This document shows, piece by piece, positions 32,005-39,977 of a stretch of 64,000 nt of DNA. Under the pieces are notes generated by a model. That model was given only the letters and a program-made list of their open reading frames with translations, was not told where the DNA came from and searched no databases. The DNA lies in contig NZ_LR134283.1 in NCBI RefSeq assembly GCF_900636475.1, forward strand, positions 620,001-684,000, given 5' to 3'. The translations under genes were made by a program, and so were the position numbers. Source of the DNA: Streptococcus anginosus (GTDB taxonomy: Bacteria; Bacillota; Bacilli; Lactobacillales; Streptococcaceae). Numbering within the stretch: position 1 is the stretch's first letter; every line of letters starts with the position of its first letter.

Positions 32005-34461
32005 TTATTTAATATTCGCAGAGAACACTTCTTCATCAGAAATAGTATCAGAGATAAAGCTACCGTTGCTGGTTCTTTCAGACAGACCGAGGTCAGCAAG
32101 ATTCACTTGGTAAGTCGTTCCTTTGTTAGAAACAATAGAAAGAATCTGCTCTTCTTCTGCTGTTGGATGATCTGAACTAAAGAGGTCTAGTTCTGCAGGT
32201 TGCTCTCCAAAGACAGGACCTGCTTGGAAAATACGATGTGGCTTGGACTTCAGCTCGCGCAACACTTGCAAACCACGATTTGCTCGGCTCGTCACAGGAA
32301 TATCTGCAACTGCCATTCGCTTGAGCGCTCCGCGCTGGGTCAAGATATAAAGTGAATCAGTATTGGCAATAAAAGCCGCTGCTAAGACATCATCTTTTTT
32401 GAGATTGATAGCTTTGACACCTGCTGCTTTAGCACCCACAACTGGCACTTCTTCAATATTAAACCGCAAGGCATAACCGTTCTTGGTCACTAGCATAACA
32501 TCATCTAACTTGATTGGAGAAAGTGTGATAATTTGGTCGTCTTCATTTTTTAATTTAGCAAATTTAACAGACTTGGACTTATAGGTGCGCCAAGGACTGA
32601 ATTCTTTTCGCTCTACTCGCTTGATTTGTCCTAGTTTTGTTACCGCAAAATAAGTTCCTTCGTCAAAATTATCAACTAATTCTGTATAAAGTACTTCTTC
32701 ATTCGTCTCAAAATTAGTAATGGTCTGGCTAAGGTGCTCCCCGATTTCTTTCCAGCGAATGTCTGCCAATTCATGGACCGGTCGATAGATGACATTGCCA
32801 AGATTGGTAAAAATCAAAAGGTGCTGAGTGGTTTTCGCCGAGCTGACAAAAATCAGACGGTCGTCCTCGCGCTTGCCGACCTCGTCAACCGTTGATGAAT
32901 TGAAAGAACGTGGACTGGTGCGTTTGAGGTAGCCGCCACGAGTGACGCTGACATAGGTTTCTTCTTCCACAATCAGACTAACCGTATCAATCTCAATGGC
33001 ATTAGCCGTATCTTGCAATTCACTAAGACGAGGATTACCAAATTTCTTTTTGACCTCGCGGAGTTCGCGCTTCATGAGATTGTACATGGTCCGCTCATCG
33101 CCGATAATGGCAGAAAGCATATCAATTTTCTCACGTAATTCCGCCTGCTCTTCTTCCAAAATCACCACATCTGTATTGGTCAAGCGATAAAGTTGGAGAG
33201 TGACGATAGCCTCTGCCTGCTCCTCGGTGAAATCATAGCTGACCTTGAGGTTTTCCTTAGCGTCAGCTTTATTTTCCGACGCACGAATGAGCGCAATCAC
33301 TTCATCCAAGATAGAAATCACTCGAATCAAGCCTTCCACGATATGCAGGCGCTTCTCTGCTTTCGCTTTGTCAAAACGACTACGCGCCAGAATAATCTCT
33401 CTTCGGTGGGCGATGTAACTAGTCAGAATCGGCACGATCCCTACCAAACGCGGCGTGAAATTGTCAATAGCCACCATGTTAAAGTTGTAATTGACCTGCA
33501 AATCCGTATATTTAAAGAGATAATTCAAAATCAGCTCGGTATTGGCATCCTTTTTCAGCTCAATAGCAATACGAAGCCCGTCACGGTCAGACTCATCCCG
33601 CACTTCTGCAATGCCAGCTACCTTATTATTGACCCGAACGTCATCAATCTTCTTGACCAGAACAGCTTTGTTAATGTCATAAGGAATTTCAGTGACAACA
33701 ATCTGCTCTTTGCCGCCTTTGAGCTTTTCAATCTCCGTCCGAGAACGCACGACAACGCGCCCCTTTCCAGTCTCATAGGCTTTCTTAATCTCATCACGCC
33801 CTTGCACAATAGCTCCCGTTGGAAAGTCAGGGCCCGGCAGAAACTCCATGAGTTTGTCAACCTTGGCTTTGGGGTGGTCAATCATATACACCACCGCATC
33901 GATGACTTCCGCCAGATTGTGAGGCGGAATGTCCGTCGCATACCCAGCAGAAATCCCCGTTGCCCCATTTACCAAAAGATTTGGAAAGGCAGCAGGCAAT
34001 ACGGTCGGTTCTTTTTCCGTATCGTCAAAGTTCCAAGCAAAAGGCACGGTGTCCTTTTCGATGTCTTGGAGCAAGTAGCCCGCAATCTCAGACAGGCGAG
34101 CCTCGGTGTACCGCATAGCGGCTGGCGGATCGCCGTCCATAGAACCGTTATTTCCGTGCATTTCCACTAAAATCTCACGGTTCTTCCAGTCCTGAGACAT
34201 ACGCACCATGGCGTCGTAGATAGAGCTGTCACCATGCGGGTGGAAATTCCCCATGATATTTCCGACAGACTTTGCTGACTTGCGGTAGCCCTTGTCAAAG
34301 GTATTGCCGTCCTTGTTCATCGAATAAAGAATCCGACGCTGCACAGGCTTGAGTCCGTCACGAATGTCGGGCAAAGCCCGCTCTTGAATGATGTATTTGG
34401 AGTAGCGCCCAAAACGCTCTCCCATGATGTCCTCTAAGGACATATTTTGAATGTTACTCAT
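32005..34461 (-). CDS. parC: DNA topoisomerase IV subunit A
   Basis: 818 aa from ATG 34461, matching the streptococcal N-terminus MSNIQNMSLEDIMGERFGRY. With ParE it decatenates daughter chromosomes. The quinolone-target region [11 protein letters not shown] has wild-type Ser79 and Asp83; the catalytic tyrosine is in AAMRYTEARLS. The C-terminal domain lacks a full GyrA box. There is no Shine-Dalgarno sequence before the ATG and no -10 at leaderless distance, which is unusual for this genome. It is separated from parE by three genes. Confidence 0.96.
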   Translation of the reverse strand: MSNIQNMSLEDIMGERFGRYSKYIIQERALPDIRDGLKPVQRRILYSMNKDGNTFDKGYRKSAKSVGNIMGNFHPHGDSSIYDAMVRMSQDWKNREILVEMHGNNGSMDGDPPAAMRYTEARLSEIAGYLLQDIEKDTVPFAWNFDDTEKEPTVLPAAFPNLLVNGATGISAGYATDIPPHNLAEVIDAVVYMIDHPKAKVDKLMEFLPGPDFPTGAIVQGRDEIKKAYETGKGRVVVRSRTEIEKLKGGKEQIVVTEIPYDINKAVLVKKIDDVRVNNKVAGIAEVRDESDRDGLRIAIELKKDANTELILNYLFKYTDLQVNYNFNMVAIDNFTPRLVGIVPILTSYIAHRREIILARSRFDKAKAEKRLHIVEGLIRVISILDEVIALIRASENKADAKENLKVSYDFTEEQAEAIVTLQLYRLTNTDVVILEEEQAELREKIDMLSAIIGDERTMYNLMKRELREVKKKFGNPRLSELQDTANAIEIDTVSLIVEEETYVSVTRGGYLKRTSPRSFNSSTVDEVGKREDDRLIFVSSAKTTQHLLIFTNLGNVIYRPVHELADIRWKEIGEHLSQTITNFETNEEVLYTELVDNFDEGTYFAVTKLGQIKRVERKEFSPWRTYKSKSVKFAKLKNEDDQIITLSPIKLDDVMLVTKNGYALRFNIEEVPVVGAKAAGVKAINLKKDDVLAAAFIANTDSLYILTQRGALKRMAVADIPVTSRANRGLQVLRELKSKPHRIFQAGPVFGEQPAELDLFSSDHPTAEEEQILSIVSNKGTTYQVNLADLGLSERTSNGSFISDTISDEEVFSANIK

Positions 34462-34512
34462 AAGATACAAAGGGACGTTTCGGCTTGCCGAAAATTTCTG
34501 TAGAAAAATAGG

Positions 34513-34672: not shown

Positions 34673-35494
34673 TCACTTTCTTAGATTCAGTTTTTCTTTA
34701 GTGTACTGAATCATTTTTTCTGCAGTCTCTTTATCATAAGGAAAACCAGTCTTGAGAGAGAAAGCCTGAGCTTCTTTGTGAAAAAATTGCTGCGTAGACA
34801 GTAAAGACTGGATGAGGCTTTCTTTGTTGGAAAAATCAAGCAAAGTGGCAAATTCTTCTTCCTTCTCCGCGGGCAAATACTGAAACAGATACTTATAGTT
34901 CTTGCCGACATCAATCACTCCCTTGTTCGCTGCCACTTGCCAAGCTAGAAGCTTGAGCAATTCTTTCTGACAGATACCATAGAGATGATCCACCGCATAC
35001 ACAAATTGTTGTCTCTGAATGCCTTTGACAACGTAGGCTGAAACCCACCAGAATTCATTGCACGATTTTGCAAAATCATCCGCACTTGCTGGTTTTGTCC
35101 AATAGCGTTTGGGAGTGGGGGTATAGGGTCGAAAAAGTCCCTGTGGGTCGTCCAACACCATAAAGTCTGCTTCGCTATCCACCCATTCTTTGATATGCTC
35201 CTTAGGGCAAAGGGTCAAATCTATCCGATTACCATCTTCAAAGAGCATCAAGTAGAGCCGGCGATGCGCAAGTACATTATGCTGCTCAATAATGCGCTCC
35301 CCAAACTGCTCCAACCAAGCAAGGTCAGCTACCAGTCTATCCAAATTATCCACAATGTAGACCACATCATAGTCTTGAAACTCGTCCTTGGGAGCATCTG
35401 GATTTGTCCGTGAGCCGGACATGGCAACAGCATCGACTTTTAGCACTTTTGCAGTTTGCAAAATCAAATCCAACATTTCACTTTCAGTTCTCAT
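34673..35494 (-). CDS. ANT(6)/AadK-like aminoglycoside nucleotidyltransferase
   Basis: 273 aa, close in length and pattern to streptomycin 6-adenylyltransferases. It starts MRTESEMLDLILQTAK; the nucleotidyltransferase motif is GSRTNP followed by DEFQDYDVVY, then LMLFEDGNRIDLTL, CNEFWWVSAYVVKG and VGKNYKYL. It would transfer AMP to streptomycin-type drugs if active. An ant-like gene between parE and parC has been reported in some viridans streptococci (from memory). AAAGGTAGGT site; 19 bases after the DUF6261-like gene, so co-transcribed. Whether it confers resistance is unknown. Confidence 0.85.
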   Translation of the reverse strand: MRTESEMLDLILQTAKVLKVDAVAMSGSRTNPDAPKDEFQDYDVVYIVDNLDRLVADLAWLEQFGERIIEQHNVLAHRRLYLMLFEDGNRIDLTLCPKEHIKEWVDSEADFMVLDDPQGLFRPYTPTPKRYWTKPASADDFAKSCNEFWWVSAYVVKGIQRQQFVYAVDHLYGICQKELLKLLAWQVAANKGVIDVGKNYKYLFQYLPAEKEEEFATLLDFSNKESLIQSLLSTQQFFHKEAQAFSLKTGFPYDKETAEKMIQYTKEKLNLRK

Positions 35495-35513: not shown

Positions 35514-36248
35514 CTAGATCGCTTCTTTCACTTTCTTAACCGCTTTACGTTTTTTGTAGCGGCTGCGAATGGTATTGAGGTGGTCGCGAAGATCTGCATA
35601 GTGGCTTCTTTCTGGGTAGGCATAGGTCATAATAGCGGTAAAATCCAGCAGGAAATCGTAGATTTCTTGTAGCTGAATGCGGAGTTGCTTGCTTTGGCTA
35701 GGCACTTTGCCTTTTAACTCGGTCAAGCGCTCCTTATAGGCTTCTTCAAACCGCTTTTGTGCAGTCATCAAACTTTCCACATGAGCTTCCAAGTGCAGTT
35801 TTGCCAGCGCCGTTTGATAGGTTGATTTCTTCAGCTCTTGGAGCAGGTGGTTGATGCCCTCTGTCTCTTTTTCATAGTTGGCAGCCGCAATCCCTGCGTA
35901 ATTTTTCAGCAAGCCTGCCAAGGTATCGTAGGCTTCTTTGGTCGCAGTCTCCTTGACCCGTGAAAATGCCCGCACCAAAGCAGTCAGCGTCCCCAAAGCA
36001 TCGTCTCGCTCGCGGTCGGCTTGGTCCAAACTGGTCACCAAGCGACTAGCTTTCGTCTGATGAAGCCCCTCCTGAAACTTAGCCAAATGCTGGCTCATCT
36101 CTTCCAGCTTGCTCGTATAAATACTTTCAACCTTGTGTGCCTTGTTAAAAGCAGCAATCGCCTCTTTCGATTCGGTCATGAGCTGGGAAAATTCGTTGTT
36201 CTCCAAATTGCGTACCGTTAAACTAATGATTCCGTATTCTTTTGTCAT
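35514..36248 (-). CDS. All-helical protein, DUF6261-like
   Basis: 244 aa, almost entirely predicted helix, rich in Ala, Glu, Lys and Leu, with no signal peptide or membrane segment. It resembles the DUF6261 family; function unknown. Base composition is clearly GC-richer than the gene on its left-hand (upstream) side. GAGGAG before the ATG. It forms a pair with the ANT-like gene (19-base gap) inside the parE-parC interval. The family call is from memory of the pattern, not a search. Confidence 0.6.
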   Translation of the reverse strand: MTKEYGIISLTVRNLENNEFSQLMTESKEAIAAFNKAHKVESIYTSKLEEMSQHLAKFQEGLHQTKASRLVTSLDQADRERDDALGTLTALVRAFSRVKETATKEAYDTLAGLLKNYAGIAAANYEKETEGINHLLQELKKSTYQTALAKLHLEAHVESLMTAQKRFEEAYKERLTELKGKVPSQSKQLRIQLQEIYDFLLDFTAIMTYAYPERSHYADLRDHLNTIRSRYKKRKAVKKVKEAI

Positions 36249-36336
36249 AAACTCCTCTTTCTTCGCGTGTTTTTTAGTTTTTTGCTTTAAAATCGCTCAG
36301 AACATATGTAAATGTTCGTCTTTTGCTCTAAAAATT

Positions 36337-36358
36337 CAAATCACACATGTGTGATTTG
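36337..36358 (-). terminator. Perfect 22-bp palindrome, probable terminator of the CSD-HEPN gene
   Basis: CAAATCACACA is followed directly by its exact complement, with T8 on the plus side and AATTTTTAG on the minus side. It can end transcripts from either strand. A second hairpin with 10-bp arms lies at 36375-36404. Confidence 0.65.
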
Positions 36359-36374
36359 TTTTTTTTACTCCTAG

Positions 36375-36404
36375 ACAAGAAATTCTTCATGTGAAATTTC
36401 TTGT
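36375..36404 (-). terminator. Hairpin downstream of the CSD-HEPN gene
   Basis: ACAAGAAATTC pairs with GAAATTTCTTGT around a short loop containing TCA/TGA. It lies 57 bases past the stop of the CSD-HEPN gene, ahead of the 22-bp palindrome. Confidence 0.5.
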
Positions 36405-36460
36405 TTTAGAGTTGGGAAAGTTGATTCTTTGTGTGGGATAGTGTTTTAAAATAGTAAAAA

Positions 36461-37993
36461 TCAAAAATACCTCTGCAAATCCATTCTTGTTTTATTAAAA
36501 TGGAGTGTTGCTGTTTCCTCTGCAAGTGATGCTTCATTTGCTATTATTTTGTATGCTGGAGGAAAATACTGAAGAAGTGCATCTGACTCAAACATTGTTA
36601 AGTCTCCAATATCTTTTAAAATGGGATTGACATTTTTTTCTTGTTCATTTCTATCATAATCACTGTCATAATCTAAGAAATAATTCGATTCGTTTTTAAA
36701 ATCATTATACATTTTATCATCAAAAAGACTAATGAATCGATGATAAATAAAATTAAGTTCAAACCAAGCTTTTCTGTAGGGATTACCAAAAATGGTTTGT
36801 GCAACCTTAACTGACATAAGCTCGTCAAATCCTTGGGACATCAGTACCTGTTTTAAATAACCAAATATGAACCAATCTTTAATTTTAGTTCTTTCAAGAG
36901 GGTTATCAAACTCTAAATCCCAGTTAGGATTATAATCAGGATTTACTATAGTTGGAATCACAAACCTTCCATGTGCCGCTGCATTTCTTATAATTCTTAA
37001 ATCTGAAAGTACTGTTTTATGTAAAACAATATCTCTGACAAAAGGAGTTAATAAACGTCCCCCTGTAGAAATACTTTCTTTTGAAAAATCATCAAACTTA
37101 ACAAGCAAAGATTCTAAAGTACTCAAATCCATTTGATCCATTAAGTCATCTAATGGTATTATATCGCAATTAATATAATCAAATTTATCTGAGTAACTTA
37201 GATACTTATATCGATCTTGAGCTCTCTTATATTGCCCCTTCTTAACATCATCGGTTGAATTTTTCCAATATCTTACAACTTTAGCAGCGATATCATCCCC
37301 ACCTTCTCTCTGAGTAGATAACCTGCTTAATAAGCTTTTGTATGAATTTTCAATCCCTAATATCCATCTTAATATCTTTTCTCTAAATACTTTATCAATA
37401 TCGTTAATTTTCACAATATGTTTTACATCAATTTTTTTTAAATTACCTAAGTTTTTTTCGATAAAAAGACCATTAACAAGATAATCTAACATATAAGGTT
37501 GAAAGCCTATTTTTTTCAGATATTCATATAAAATAGCATCATCGTCCACCAAAACAAAATCATAAAAATGTTTTAACTTAGAAGCAATAAACTTATCGTT
37601 TATCAATTCTGGTTCTCTAATTTCTTTCTCCATATGAATTTTGGATGGCAGTTGAATATTAAATAAATCAAATTTCTCTTTCACTTGATTCAAATAAGAT
37701 TTTGATCCTCCCCGCTTTTTCTGGACTAGATTTCGGGAATCAAATCTCAACTCAACAGCTTCTCTAATTATCTTATCTCTAAGAGACACTCCCTTTTTTA
37801 TATTAAACTCCACTTCTTCACTATATTCAATGTATTCAATACCATCGATTTCTTTTATCATCTCAGAAGTAAATTGAAATGGAAGCTCTTCTCCTTCTTG
37901 ACCAAAGCTATCAGTAGAAATATATCCGTAATTTCTAAATAGCTTGATAATTCTTCCTTTACCTTTTTTCTTCTTGTTTTTATTTCTACCCAT
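36461..37993 (-). CDS. Cold-shock domain plus HEPN (Abi-like) protein, candidate defence factor
   Basis: 510 aa, cytoplasmic. After a Lys-rich start, residues about 12-69 look like a cold-shock domain: GRIIKLFRNYGYIS, then LPFQF in the place of the VFVHF motif, then EEVEFNIKKG. Residues about 200-345 look like the Abi_2 (AbiD/F) family: ILRWILGIENSYKSLL, ending in LRIIRNAAAH, the R-X4-H HEPN RNase signature (Arg336, His341). The C-terminal 150 residues are unassigned. The gene is very AT-rich beside GC-richer parE, which ends 34 bases upstream on the same strand. I infer an RNA-targeting abortive-infection protein; no experiment or search supports it yet. Confidence 0.65.
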   Translation of the reverse strand: MGRNKNKKKKGKGRIIKLFRNYGYISTDSFGQEGEELPFQFTSEMIKEIDGIEYIEYSEEVEFNIKKGVSLRDKIIREAVELRFDSRNLVQKKRGGSKSYLNQVKEKFDLFNIQLPSKIHMEKEIREPELINDKFIASKLKHFYDFVLVDDDAILYEYLKKIGFQPYMLDYLVNGLFIEKNLGNLKKIDVKHIVKINDIDKVFREKILRWILGIENSYKSLLSRLSTQREGGDDIAAKVVRYWKNSTDDVKKGQYKRAQDRYKYLSYSDKFDYINCDIIPLDDLMDQMDLSTLESLLVKFDDFSKESISTGGRLLTPFVRDIVLHKTVLSDLRIIRNAAAHGRFVIPTIVNPDYNPNWDLEFDNPLERTKIKDWFIFGYLKQVLMSQGFDELMSVKVAQTIFGNPYRKAWFELNFIYHRFISLFDDKMYNDFKNESNYFLDYDSDYDRNEQEKNVNPILKDIGDLTMFESDALLQYFPPAYKIIANEASLAEETATLHFNKTRMDLQRYF

Positions 37994-38027
37994 TTTTCAC
38001 CTTCTTCAATTTATATTCTTTACTCTC

Positions 38028-39977
38028 CTAAAAAATAACTTCTCCACTCTCCTCCAGCGTAAACTTGACATTATCTTCAATCCATTTACGGCGGGGTGGG
38101 ACTTTGTCGCCCATGAGGACATTGACGCGGCGCTCGGCACGAGCCAAGTCGTCAATGGTGACGCGAATGAGGGTGCGGTTTTCAGGGTTCATAGTGGTTT
38201 CCCAAAGCTGGTCGGCGTTCATTTCCCCAAGCCCTTTGTAGCGTTGCAGCATGGCACCTTTGCCAAATTTCTTACGCAGGTCTTCTAGCTCGCCGTCCGT
38301 CCAAGCATACTCGACAACCTCGTTCTTGCCTTTGCCTTTGGACATTTTATAGAGCGGAGGCAGGGCGATATAGACATGCCCCGCTTCTACGAGTGGGCGC
38401 ATGTAGCGGTAAAAGAAGGTCAGCAAGAGCGTCTGGATATGGGCACCGTCCGTATCCGCATCGGTCATGATGATAATCTTGTCGTAGTTGGCATCTTCTA
38501 GGGAGAAGTCCGATCCGACACCTGCACCAATGGTGTAAATCATGGTGTTGATTTCTTCATTTTTGAGAATATCCGCCATTTTAGCCTTGGCGGTATTGAT
38601 GACCTTACCGCGTAGGGGCAGAATCGCCTGAAACTTGCGGTCGCGTCCTTGCTTGGCAGAGCCGCCCGCTGAATCGCCTTCGACCAGATAGAGTTCGTTT
38701 TTAGCTGGATTTTTGGATTGAGCTGGCGTTAGCTTTCCAGATAAAAGCCCCTTGTCTTTCTTGTTCTTCTTGCCACTTCGGCTTTCATCTCTCGCCTTGC
38801 GGGCTGCCTCGCGCGCATCTCTCGCCTTAATTGCCTTGCGGATGAGATTAGATGCCAATTCCCCATTTTCCAAGAGGAAGAAAGTCAACTTGTCTGACAC
38901 AATCGAATCCACCGCAGGACGAGCAAGCGGACTGCCCAGCTTGTCCTTGGTCTGCCCTTCAAATTGCAAATGCTCTTCTGGCACTAAGATAGAAAGAACA
39001 GCCGCTAAGCCCTCACGGTAGTCAGAGCCTTCCAGATTTTTGTCCTTTTCTTTCAGCAAACCAGTCTTTCTTGCATAGTCATTCATGACCTTGGTAATAG
39101 CAGACTTAAGCCCCGTCTCGTGCGTTCCGCCGTCCTTGGTGCGGACGTTATTGACAAAAGAAAGGATATTGTCTGAATAACCGTCGTTGTACTGGAGAGC
39201 CACTTCCACTTGAAAACCGCCCTCTTCTCCTTCAAAATAAAGAACTGGTGTCAAAGTTTCCTTGTCTTCGTTCAGATAGCTGACAAAGTCCTGCACCCCA
39301 TTTTCATAATGAAAATCAACAGACTCGCCCGTTCGCTCATCTGTCAGAGAAAGGTGAACATTTTTCAAGAGAAAGGCTGATTCATTGAGCCGCTCCGAAA
39401 TGGTATTGTATTTGAAATCTATCGTTGAAAAAATCGTGTCGTCAGGCATAAAGGTCACTTTCGTACCAGATTTGGACTTAGCTGCTGTCCCAATTTTCTT
39501 CAAAGTTGTTGCTGGCTTTCCACCATTTTCAAAACGTTGTTTATAAATTGTACCGTCACGTGTGATTTCAACTTCCAGCCAGCTAGACAGCGCATTGACC
39601 ACAGAAGAACCCACACCGTGCAGCCCCCCAGAGGTCTTGTAACCACCCTGACCGAATTTACCCCCAGCGTGGAGCACTGTAAAGATGACTTCTACTGTTG
39701 GGATGCCCATAGCGTGCATACCGACTGGCATTCCCCGACCGTGGTCTGCCACAGTCAAACTCCCGTCTTTGTGAATGGTCACGTCAATCTTATCACCAAA
39801 GCCAGACAGAGCCTCGTCAACTGCATTGTCAACAATTTCCCAGACCAAATGGTGAAGCCCAGTTGCATCCGTTGATCCGATATACATACCAGGACGCTTA
39901 CGAACCGCGTCCAATCCTTCTAATACTTGAATGGCATCATCATTGTAATTGTTAATATTGATTTCCTTTTTTGCCAC
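38028..39977 (-). CDS. parE: DNA topoisomerase IV subunit B
   Basis: 649 aa ATPase subunit of topoisomerase IV. GHKL ATPase motifs EIVDNAVDEAL, DHGRGMPVG and SGGLHGVGSSVVNAL; Toprim motifs LVEGDSAGGSAKQGRDR and IMTDADTDGAH. It starts at GTG with AGGAGG six bases before it. The DNA is noticeably GC-richer than gyrA or the following gene, as in mosaic viridans par loci. Divergent from plsY. Normally near parC, from which it is parted here by three genes. Confidence 0.96.
   Translation of the reverse strand: MAKKEININNYNDDAIQVLEGLDAVRKRPGMYIGSTDATGLHHLVWEIVDNAVDEALSGFGDKIDVTIHKDGSLTVADHGRGMPVGMHAMGIPTVEVIFTVLHAGGKFGQGGYKTSGGLHGVGSSVVNALSSWLEVEITRDGTIYKQRFENGGKPATTLKKIGTAAKSKSGTKVTFMPDDTIFSTIDFKYNTISERLNESAFLLKNVHLSLTDERTGESVDFHYENGVQDFVSYLNEDKETLTPVLYFEGEEGGFQVEVALQYNDGYSDNILSFVNNVRTKDGGTHETGLKSAITKVMNDYARKTGLLKEKDKNLEGSDYREGLAAVLSILVPEEHLQFEGQTKDKLGSPLARPAVDSIVSDKLTFFLLENGELASNLIRKAIKARDAREAARKARDESRSGKKNKKDKGLLSGKLTPAQSKNPAKNELYLVEGDSAGGSAKQGRDRKFQAILPLRGKVINTAKAKMADILKNEEINTMIYTIGAGVGSDFSLEDANYDKIIIMTDADTDGAHIQTLLLTFFYRYMRPLVEAGHVYIALPPLYKMSKGKGKNEVVEYAWTDGELEDLRKKFGKGAMLQRYKGLGEMNADQLWETTMNPENRTLIRVTIDDLARAERRVNVLMGDKVPPRRKWIEDNVKFTLEESGEVIF

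Follow-up and report, generated by a model that had tools for sequence, protein, structure and literature searches.

The stretch of DNA analysed here, which we call the window, comprises 64,000 nucleotides of Streptococcus anginosus (assembly GCF_900636475.1, contig NZ_LR134283.1, positions 620,001 to 684,000 of the forward strand). On its minus strand, directly behind parE, lies a gene for a 510-residue protein, P0001, in which an N-terminal cold-shock-like domain is joined to an Abi_2/AbiF-type HEPN region. We consider it probable that P0001 is a single-gene, horizontally swapped defence factor, an AbiD/AbiF-type HEPN ribonuclease (RNase) whose cold-shock-like domain is an RNA-contacting regulator. 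A role in defence against phage or mobile elements is well supported; RNase activity, toxicity and a homodimer are predicted, and the cold-shock-like domain, together with a basic tail ahead of it, would provide RNA sensing or control.

A cold-shock-like domain fused to an AbiF-type HEPN protein

The gene and its parts are placed as follows.

36461..37993, minus strand: gene for P0001, an open reading frame (ORF) of 510 residues with cold-shock-like and Abi_2 parts
37718..37966, minus strand: cold-shock-like barrel, about residues 10-92 (strands of the model; UNR, YB-1 and CspA domain matches)
36965..37495, minus strand: Abi_2 (AbiD/F) HEPN region, residues 167-343 (Pfam PF07751; PADLOC AbiD)
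36971..36988, minus strand: predicted HEPN RNase motif R336-N-A-A-A-H341 (alignment of 7 sequences)
36464..36964, minus strand: C-terminal helical region, residues 344-510, largely inside the AbiF match

A preliminary description of this stretch had recognised a protein with cold-shock-like and Abi_2-like parts between parE and parC, and our analysis bears out both the observation and the two-part make-up. The Abi_2 part is identified by PADLOC as AbiD and by PF07751, which scores 33.8 bits against a curated cut-off of 25.6, and the model of residues 96-510 shows an AbiF fold, aligning with PbAbiF up to residue 497. The HEPN signature that had been proposed at Arg336-His341 (RNAAAH) stands up to comparison: the R, the first N, A340 and the H are invariant in all seven aligned sequences. 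A second R-D-xxx-H string, RDIVLH at residue 320, is not conserved throughout the relatives. In the related proteins, the toxicity of AbiFCd is lost in double mutants at R202 and H207, and PbAbiF is inactivated by R210A and H215A together (PMC12373285). The AbiF-type HEPN domain of P0001 is predicted to pair with itself into a dimeric RNase whose active site contains R336 and H341. P0001 matches no NCBIfam model, its best E value in PHROGs is 0.25, and a search of solved structures by sequence returns one match at E 0.53 for P0001 alone and none for profile A4.

The N-terminal domain is predicted to adopt a five-stranded OB barrel of the cold-shock domain (CSD) kind. Profile A5 matches the CSDs of UNR in the PDB with E values of 0.0012 and 0.0031. 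Against a sequence relation to CSDs stands an hhalign comparison of the domain with one other CSD, at a probability of 6.7, and we call the domain only cold-shock-like because P0001 has no match to Pfam PF00313 (CSD) at E 10. In an alignment judged by eye for the RNP1 and RNP2 nucleic-acid contact motifs, an RNP1-like NYGYIS is present and the RNP2-like LPFQFT is altered. Ten of the first 20 residues, ahead of the domain, are K or R. The domain probably binds RNA.

Comparison with the copy in S. oralis indicates purifying selection on P0001 (nonsynonymous divergence dN 0.064, synonymous divergence dS 0.334, dN/dS about 0.19). A chance ORF is ruled out by this ratio and by the conservation of the motif in the seven aligned sequences.

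A probably swappable cassette in a slot behind parE

The slot and its flanks are laid out below.

38028..39977, minus strand: parE (topoisomerase IV subunit B), upstream flank of the slot (Pfam gyrase B models; parE rather than gyrB is a label taken from the preliminary description and the context)
37994..38027, minus strand: gap of 34 nucleotides from the parE stop to the gene for P0001
36195..38015, no strand assigned: swappable cassette, made up of the gene, the downstream spacer and the first 54 or so bases of the DUF6261 gene
36249..36460, minus strand: downstream spacer, cassette-specific, 212 nucleotides, fold stabler than shuffles (z -3.1)
36337..36358, no strand assigned: palindrome CAAATCACACATGTGTGATTTG, with terminator-like tails on both strands
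35514..36248, minus strand: DUF6261 gene, downstream flank of the slot (Pfam PF19775)
34673..35494, minus strand: ant-type adenylyltransferase-like gene (Pfam PF04439)
32005..34470, minus strand: parC (ORF; name from the preliminary description and the position)

Two features noted beforehand, an AT-rich gene between GC-richer neighbours and a start 34 bases after parE, are both confirmed; the GC content is 29.7%, against 43-48% in parE, the DUF6261 gene, ant and parC. The nearest genome by its ParE end (G054, 100% identical) carries another gene at the same place. Between 38016 and 36194 the two sequences do not align at all, and the flanks on either side are 96.0% and 96.9% identical. The fusion gene of the window is 89.9% identical to that of S. 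oralis, as against 79.8% for parE. Since near-identical flanks enclose another gene in G054 and the fusion gene is closer to S. oralis than parE is, these sequence comparisons and the slot data that follow suggest that the cassette is exchanged by recombination in the flanking DNA.

We surveyed the slot in the window and in 39 of 146 other streptococci searched, a non-random sample of mostly the nearest ParE sequences from which several close ones were omitted. The first position behind parE holds a gene of at least 70 residues in 34 of the 40 genomes (window included). These first genes fall into 23 families, defined by single-linkage clustering of BLASTP matches among mechanically called ORFs of at least 70 residues with mechanical start codons; some of the families also occur elsewhere in the parE-parC interval. 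Among the remaining six genomes, parE and parC are nearly adjacent in four and ant comes first in two. Defence-family cargo is found in 7 of the 34 filled slots, that of the window included. As a control, the interval from parC to bcaT (named by eye) measures 116-343 nucleotides in the 27 of 40 genomes that place both genes.

All 34 first genes are co-directional with parE, 31 start no more than 69 nucleotides from the parE stop, and in four there is an overlap with it. The overlap reads TAATG in L086 and TGATG in L101, L105 and L107, and the parE stop codon varies between genomes. The gene for P0001 would probably be transcribed by read-through from parE, because the first genes share its direction and the 34-nucleotide gap has no promoter-like match, in a weak scan whose sites were no commoner than in shuffles.

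In the window the DUF6261 and adenylyltransferase-like genes lie between the fusion gene and parC, an arrangement that corresponds to the parE-ant-parC order of the S. mitis group (PMC2727337). That group likewise has a long parE-parC intergenic region with ant that is exchanged between streptococci. There the region is regarded as a sign that the topoisomerase genes are recombinant, whereas here its first position is a cassette slot, filled in part by defence genes.

A rare gene among defence and mobile-element genes

Profile A1 matches 9 of 284 Streptococcus genomes, and the full fusion is present in five: that of the window, S. oralis subsp. dentisani (G189), G294, a Streptococcus metagenome-assembled genome (MAG; G070) and S. 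entericus (G158). Beyond these, the profile matches G190, two ORFs of 314 and 306 residues that resemble ordinary AbiD, and a scrap of 43 residues. A sixth copy of the fusion, apparently frameshifted, occurs in another family (G398). The preliminary description had set against its own reading the case of a core gene always conserved with parE; this is ruled out, as the fusion is restricted to those five genomes and only two of the five copies, those of the window and S. oralis, stand behind parE.

With the genome of the window counted each time, matches were obtained in 5 of 197 genomes of the genus sample, 2 of 196 of the family sample (the other being G294) and 2 of 246 of the order sample (the other being G398). 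The class sample gave 4 of 398, the other three in ORFs of 330-341 residues, and the phylum sample 7 of 348, the other six mainly over the Abi_2 part in ORFs of 263-366 residues. In a tree, the five fusion proteins and the G190 protein split on long branches from 31 rows taken as Abi_2 (support 98/98); the non-fusion rows were selected on length and motif, so that at least one of them could lie outside Abi_2, and because of the long branches it is uncertain where the S. entericus and G190 proteins belong. The G190 protein (L004 1315-2799) is an Abi_2 relative of 494 residues with HEPN and a long C-terminus, in which no cold-shock-like part was seen.

No homologue of P0001 was found among phage, plasmid and viral sequences, nor any match of alignment A1 to viral contigs. 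The S. entericus protein has no homologue in the phage, plasmid and viral sets; the viral-contig scans rest on a few short peptides and detect nothing but close matches to them. The MAG protein has none among plasmids.

The neighbourhoods of the six copies point to defence and mobility: two lie behind parE, one beside SIR2-HerA and restriction-modification genes, one beside Gabija and two among conjugation-type genes. In G294 the order is a 5-methylcytosine methyltransferase, a helix-turn-helix (HTH) gene recognised by eye, a restriction enzyme, SIR2, HerA and, 19 nucleotides after herA, the fusion gene. In G398 a PIN-domain gene precedes the fusion gene, which is followed by GajA, GajB and DUF4238. 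These contexts and the variable parE slot support in part the earlier suggestion of an abortive-infection or toxin factor. In G294 the fusion gene lies in a compact island (L042 2044-13017) together with SIR2-HerA, a type II restriction-modification set and, by eye, a MazEF-like pair.

The two copies among conjugation-type genes would also fit a protein that chiefly stabilises conjugative elements or helps them to compete, persists in chromosomes as a remnant of them and is not a phage defence. The MAG copy has ssb directly before it, a type IV secretion coupling-protein gene after it and a topoisomerase upstream; the S. entericus copy is flanked by an HTH gene and an IrrE-like gene and has Rep_trans and FtsK-type genes in its vicinity. 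However, two copies occupy the parE slot and two adjoin known phage-defence operons, and we regard such a role as rather improbable.

The question of a partner RNA or antitoxin

AbiF proteins are held by a noncoding RNA (ncRNA) partner, and ncRNA binding is described for both AbiFCd and PbAbiF (PMC12373285). P0001 might accordingly be the AbiF toxin of a type III-like toxin-antitoxin pair, with an ncRNA from the spacer or elsewhere as antitoxin and the cold-shock-like domain merely helping to hold it. The 212-nucleotide spacer folds better than its shuffles in both sequences tested, the window and S. oralis (z -2.9 in the latter), and there is room upstream of the S. entericus copy (172 nucleotides) and the MAG copy (about 100). 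A match to the small RNA SpF11 (L007 3337-3405) that lies some 240 nucleotides downstream of the G294 fusion gene, with 54.4 bits against a gathering score of 54, could be counted on the same side.

Against a common partner, the upstream gaps of the window, S. oralis and G294 copies (34, 34 and 19 nucleotides) are too short for an RCd22-like RNA, and the S. entericus copy has only 31 nucleotides downstream; there is therefore no single RNA position common to all. The two spacer folds mainly share the palindrome, which resembles a two-way terminator, and otherwise differ. The abiF ncRNA model (RF03085) finds nothing in the window between 34400 and 40200, in the rest of its own genome or at the loci of five relatives, although the controls are likewise empty, with none at the 20 control loci, taken from 27 streptococcal Abi_2 matches, and none in 14 control genomes. 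Taken together, we think a toxin-antitoxin pair of this kind unlikely.

In the window, the 34-nucleotide gap rules out that an antitoxin RNA or gene lies immediately ahead of the fusion gene, and it leaves no place there for a repeat-containing antitoxin RNA of type III systems; no tandem-repeat search was made. The preliminary description had seen no antitoxin gene adjoining, and none is evident: around 36190-36470 there are small ORFs of 20-73 residues from the mechanical listing, without other support.

Comparison with known systems and a model of function

P0001 is like AbiD/AbiF (PF07751; PbAbiF, 8vz6; AbiFCd) in its Abi_2 match, its fold over most of residues 96-497, its RNxxAH motif and its defence neighbourhoods. 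It differs in the extra N-terminal domain, a longer C-terminal part, its separate branch and the lack of a detected abiF RNA. Lactococcal AbiD1, of the same superfamily, is a toxin controlled through an RNA-binding step, being switched on by the phage RNA-binding protein Orf1, or by low temperature, through activated translation of its mRNA (PMC2661086). That control acts on the translation start region of the mRNA, whereas in P0001 an RNA-binding-type domain lies within the toxin-like protein itself. By analogy, the cold-shock-like domain could replace, inside one protein, the ncRNA of AbiF or the RNA-level switch of AbiD1.

The effect of low temperature on AbiD1, like the cold-shock-like domain itself, would also suit a cold-shock-response regulator or an RNA-processing protein that reuses the HEPN fold and has no defence role. 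Occurrence in so few Streptococcus genomes, cassette swapping and defence neighbourhoods do not suit such a housekeeping role, which we consider highly improbable.

The STAND proteins of Bacillus cereus (PMC3710099) and the CoCoNuT systems (PMC11090510) also combine HEPN with a cold-shock-like OB fold and are predicted to act in defence. These are multi-domain or multi-gene nucleoside triphosphatase (NTPase) systems, whereas P0001 is a two-part protein in which no NTPase domain was found. Cas13, including Cas13d, has two HEPN motifs; P0001 has one conserved motif and is far smaller. The preliminary description had not recognised the combination as a described system, and this would hold only for the fusion as such: its components, Abi_2/AbiF (PMC12373285) and HEPN with cold-shock-like OB folds elsewhere (PMC3710099, PMC11090510), are already described, and no description of a direct cold-shock-like/AbiF fusion was found in the literature searched, in a weak search partly swamped by unrelated papers.

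For P0001 as an AbiF-type defence RNase with a built-in regulator, we propose the following course. In the uninfected cell the cold-shock-like domain would probably keep the protein quiet, either through a bound RNA or because it blocks the HEPN groove. Upon infection, or when a mobile element enters, that RNA would be altered or the groove freed, and the HEPN dimer would then cut cellular RNA and bring growth to a stop.

AbiD/F has been proposed as an ancestor of the Cas13 RNases (PMC12373285, PMC12165695). A wider and more tentative version would make P0001 an abortive-infection enzyme that senses RNA without a separate partner and belongs to a side branch of this proposed Cas13 lineage. Its in-chain domain would do the job of the AbiF ncRNA, binding RNA to hold, aim or release the HEPN RNase, and its gene would occupy a plug-in site without a promoter, downstream of an essential gene, at which streptococci swap cassettes, defence genes included, by recombination. 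A branch whose proteins carry an RNA-binding-type domain of their own would allow the restraint and triggering of HEPN RNases to be examined directly.

Other genes of the slot

The ant-type gene of the window has a strong Pfam Adenyl_transf match, and all five of its NCBIfam matches fall below the cut-off; it is therefore not a confirmed aminoglycoside-resistance gene.

If general, the parE slot would be a place for finding new streptococcal defence genes, as several cargo families have no recognised domain. We found nothing on point about it as a streptococcal defence locus in the literature searched, though the search was weak and is no proof of absence from print. The Pfam and PADLOC scans covered all of the 23 first-gene families but c4, c5, c7 and c10, some of them with just one of the two resources. 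The defence cargo includes AbiH (L089), GmrSD (L097, with a broken gene in L084), a type IIG restriction enzyme (L099) and a methyltransferase with an Eco47II-type restriction enzyme, scanned from L098 and L110 respectively, whose clusters are paired in both genomes. RES (L088) and Fic (L078) are possible further defence cargo. Other scanned cargo has no match or one of unclear role (SEC-C, DUF1310, CSD, weak AAA).

In L084 (G095), a GmrSD_N gene apparently split into two ORFs is followed by a 281-residue protein with no Pfam match and an RNRLAHN string that looks HEPN-like by eye. The first gene of L085 (G027) encodes, in the same slot, a 225-residue protein with a Pfam CSD (1.7e-12) and a C-terminal part without an assigned domain. 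In L076 (G047), a split-looking AAA-type gene (weak Pfam AAA, below the cut-off) precedes a gene for a 227-residue protein that has no match in Pfam or PADLOC, and by eye the two resemble an ATPase-effector defence pair.
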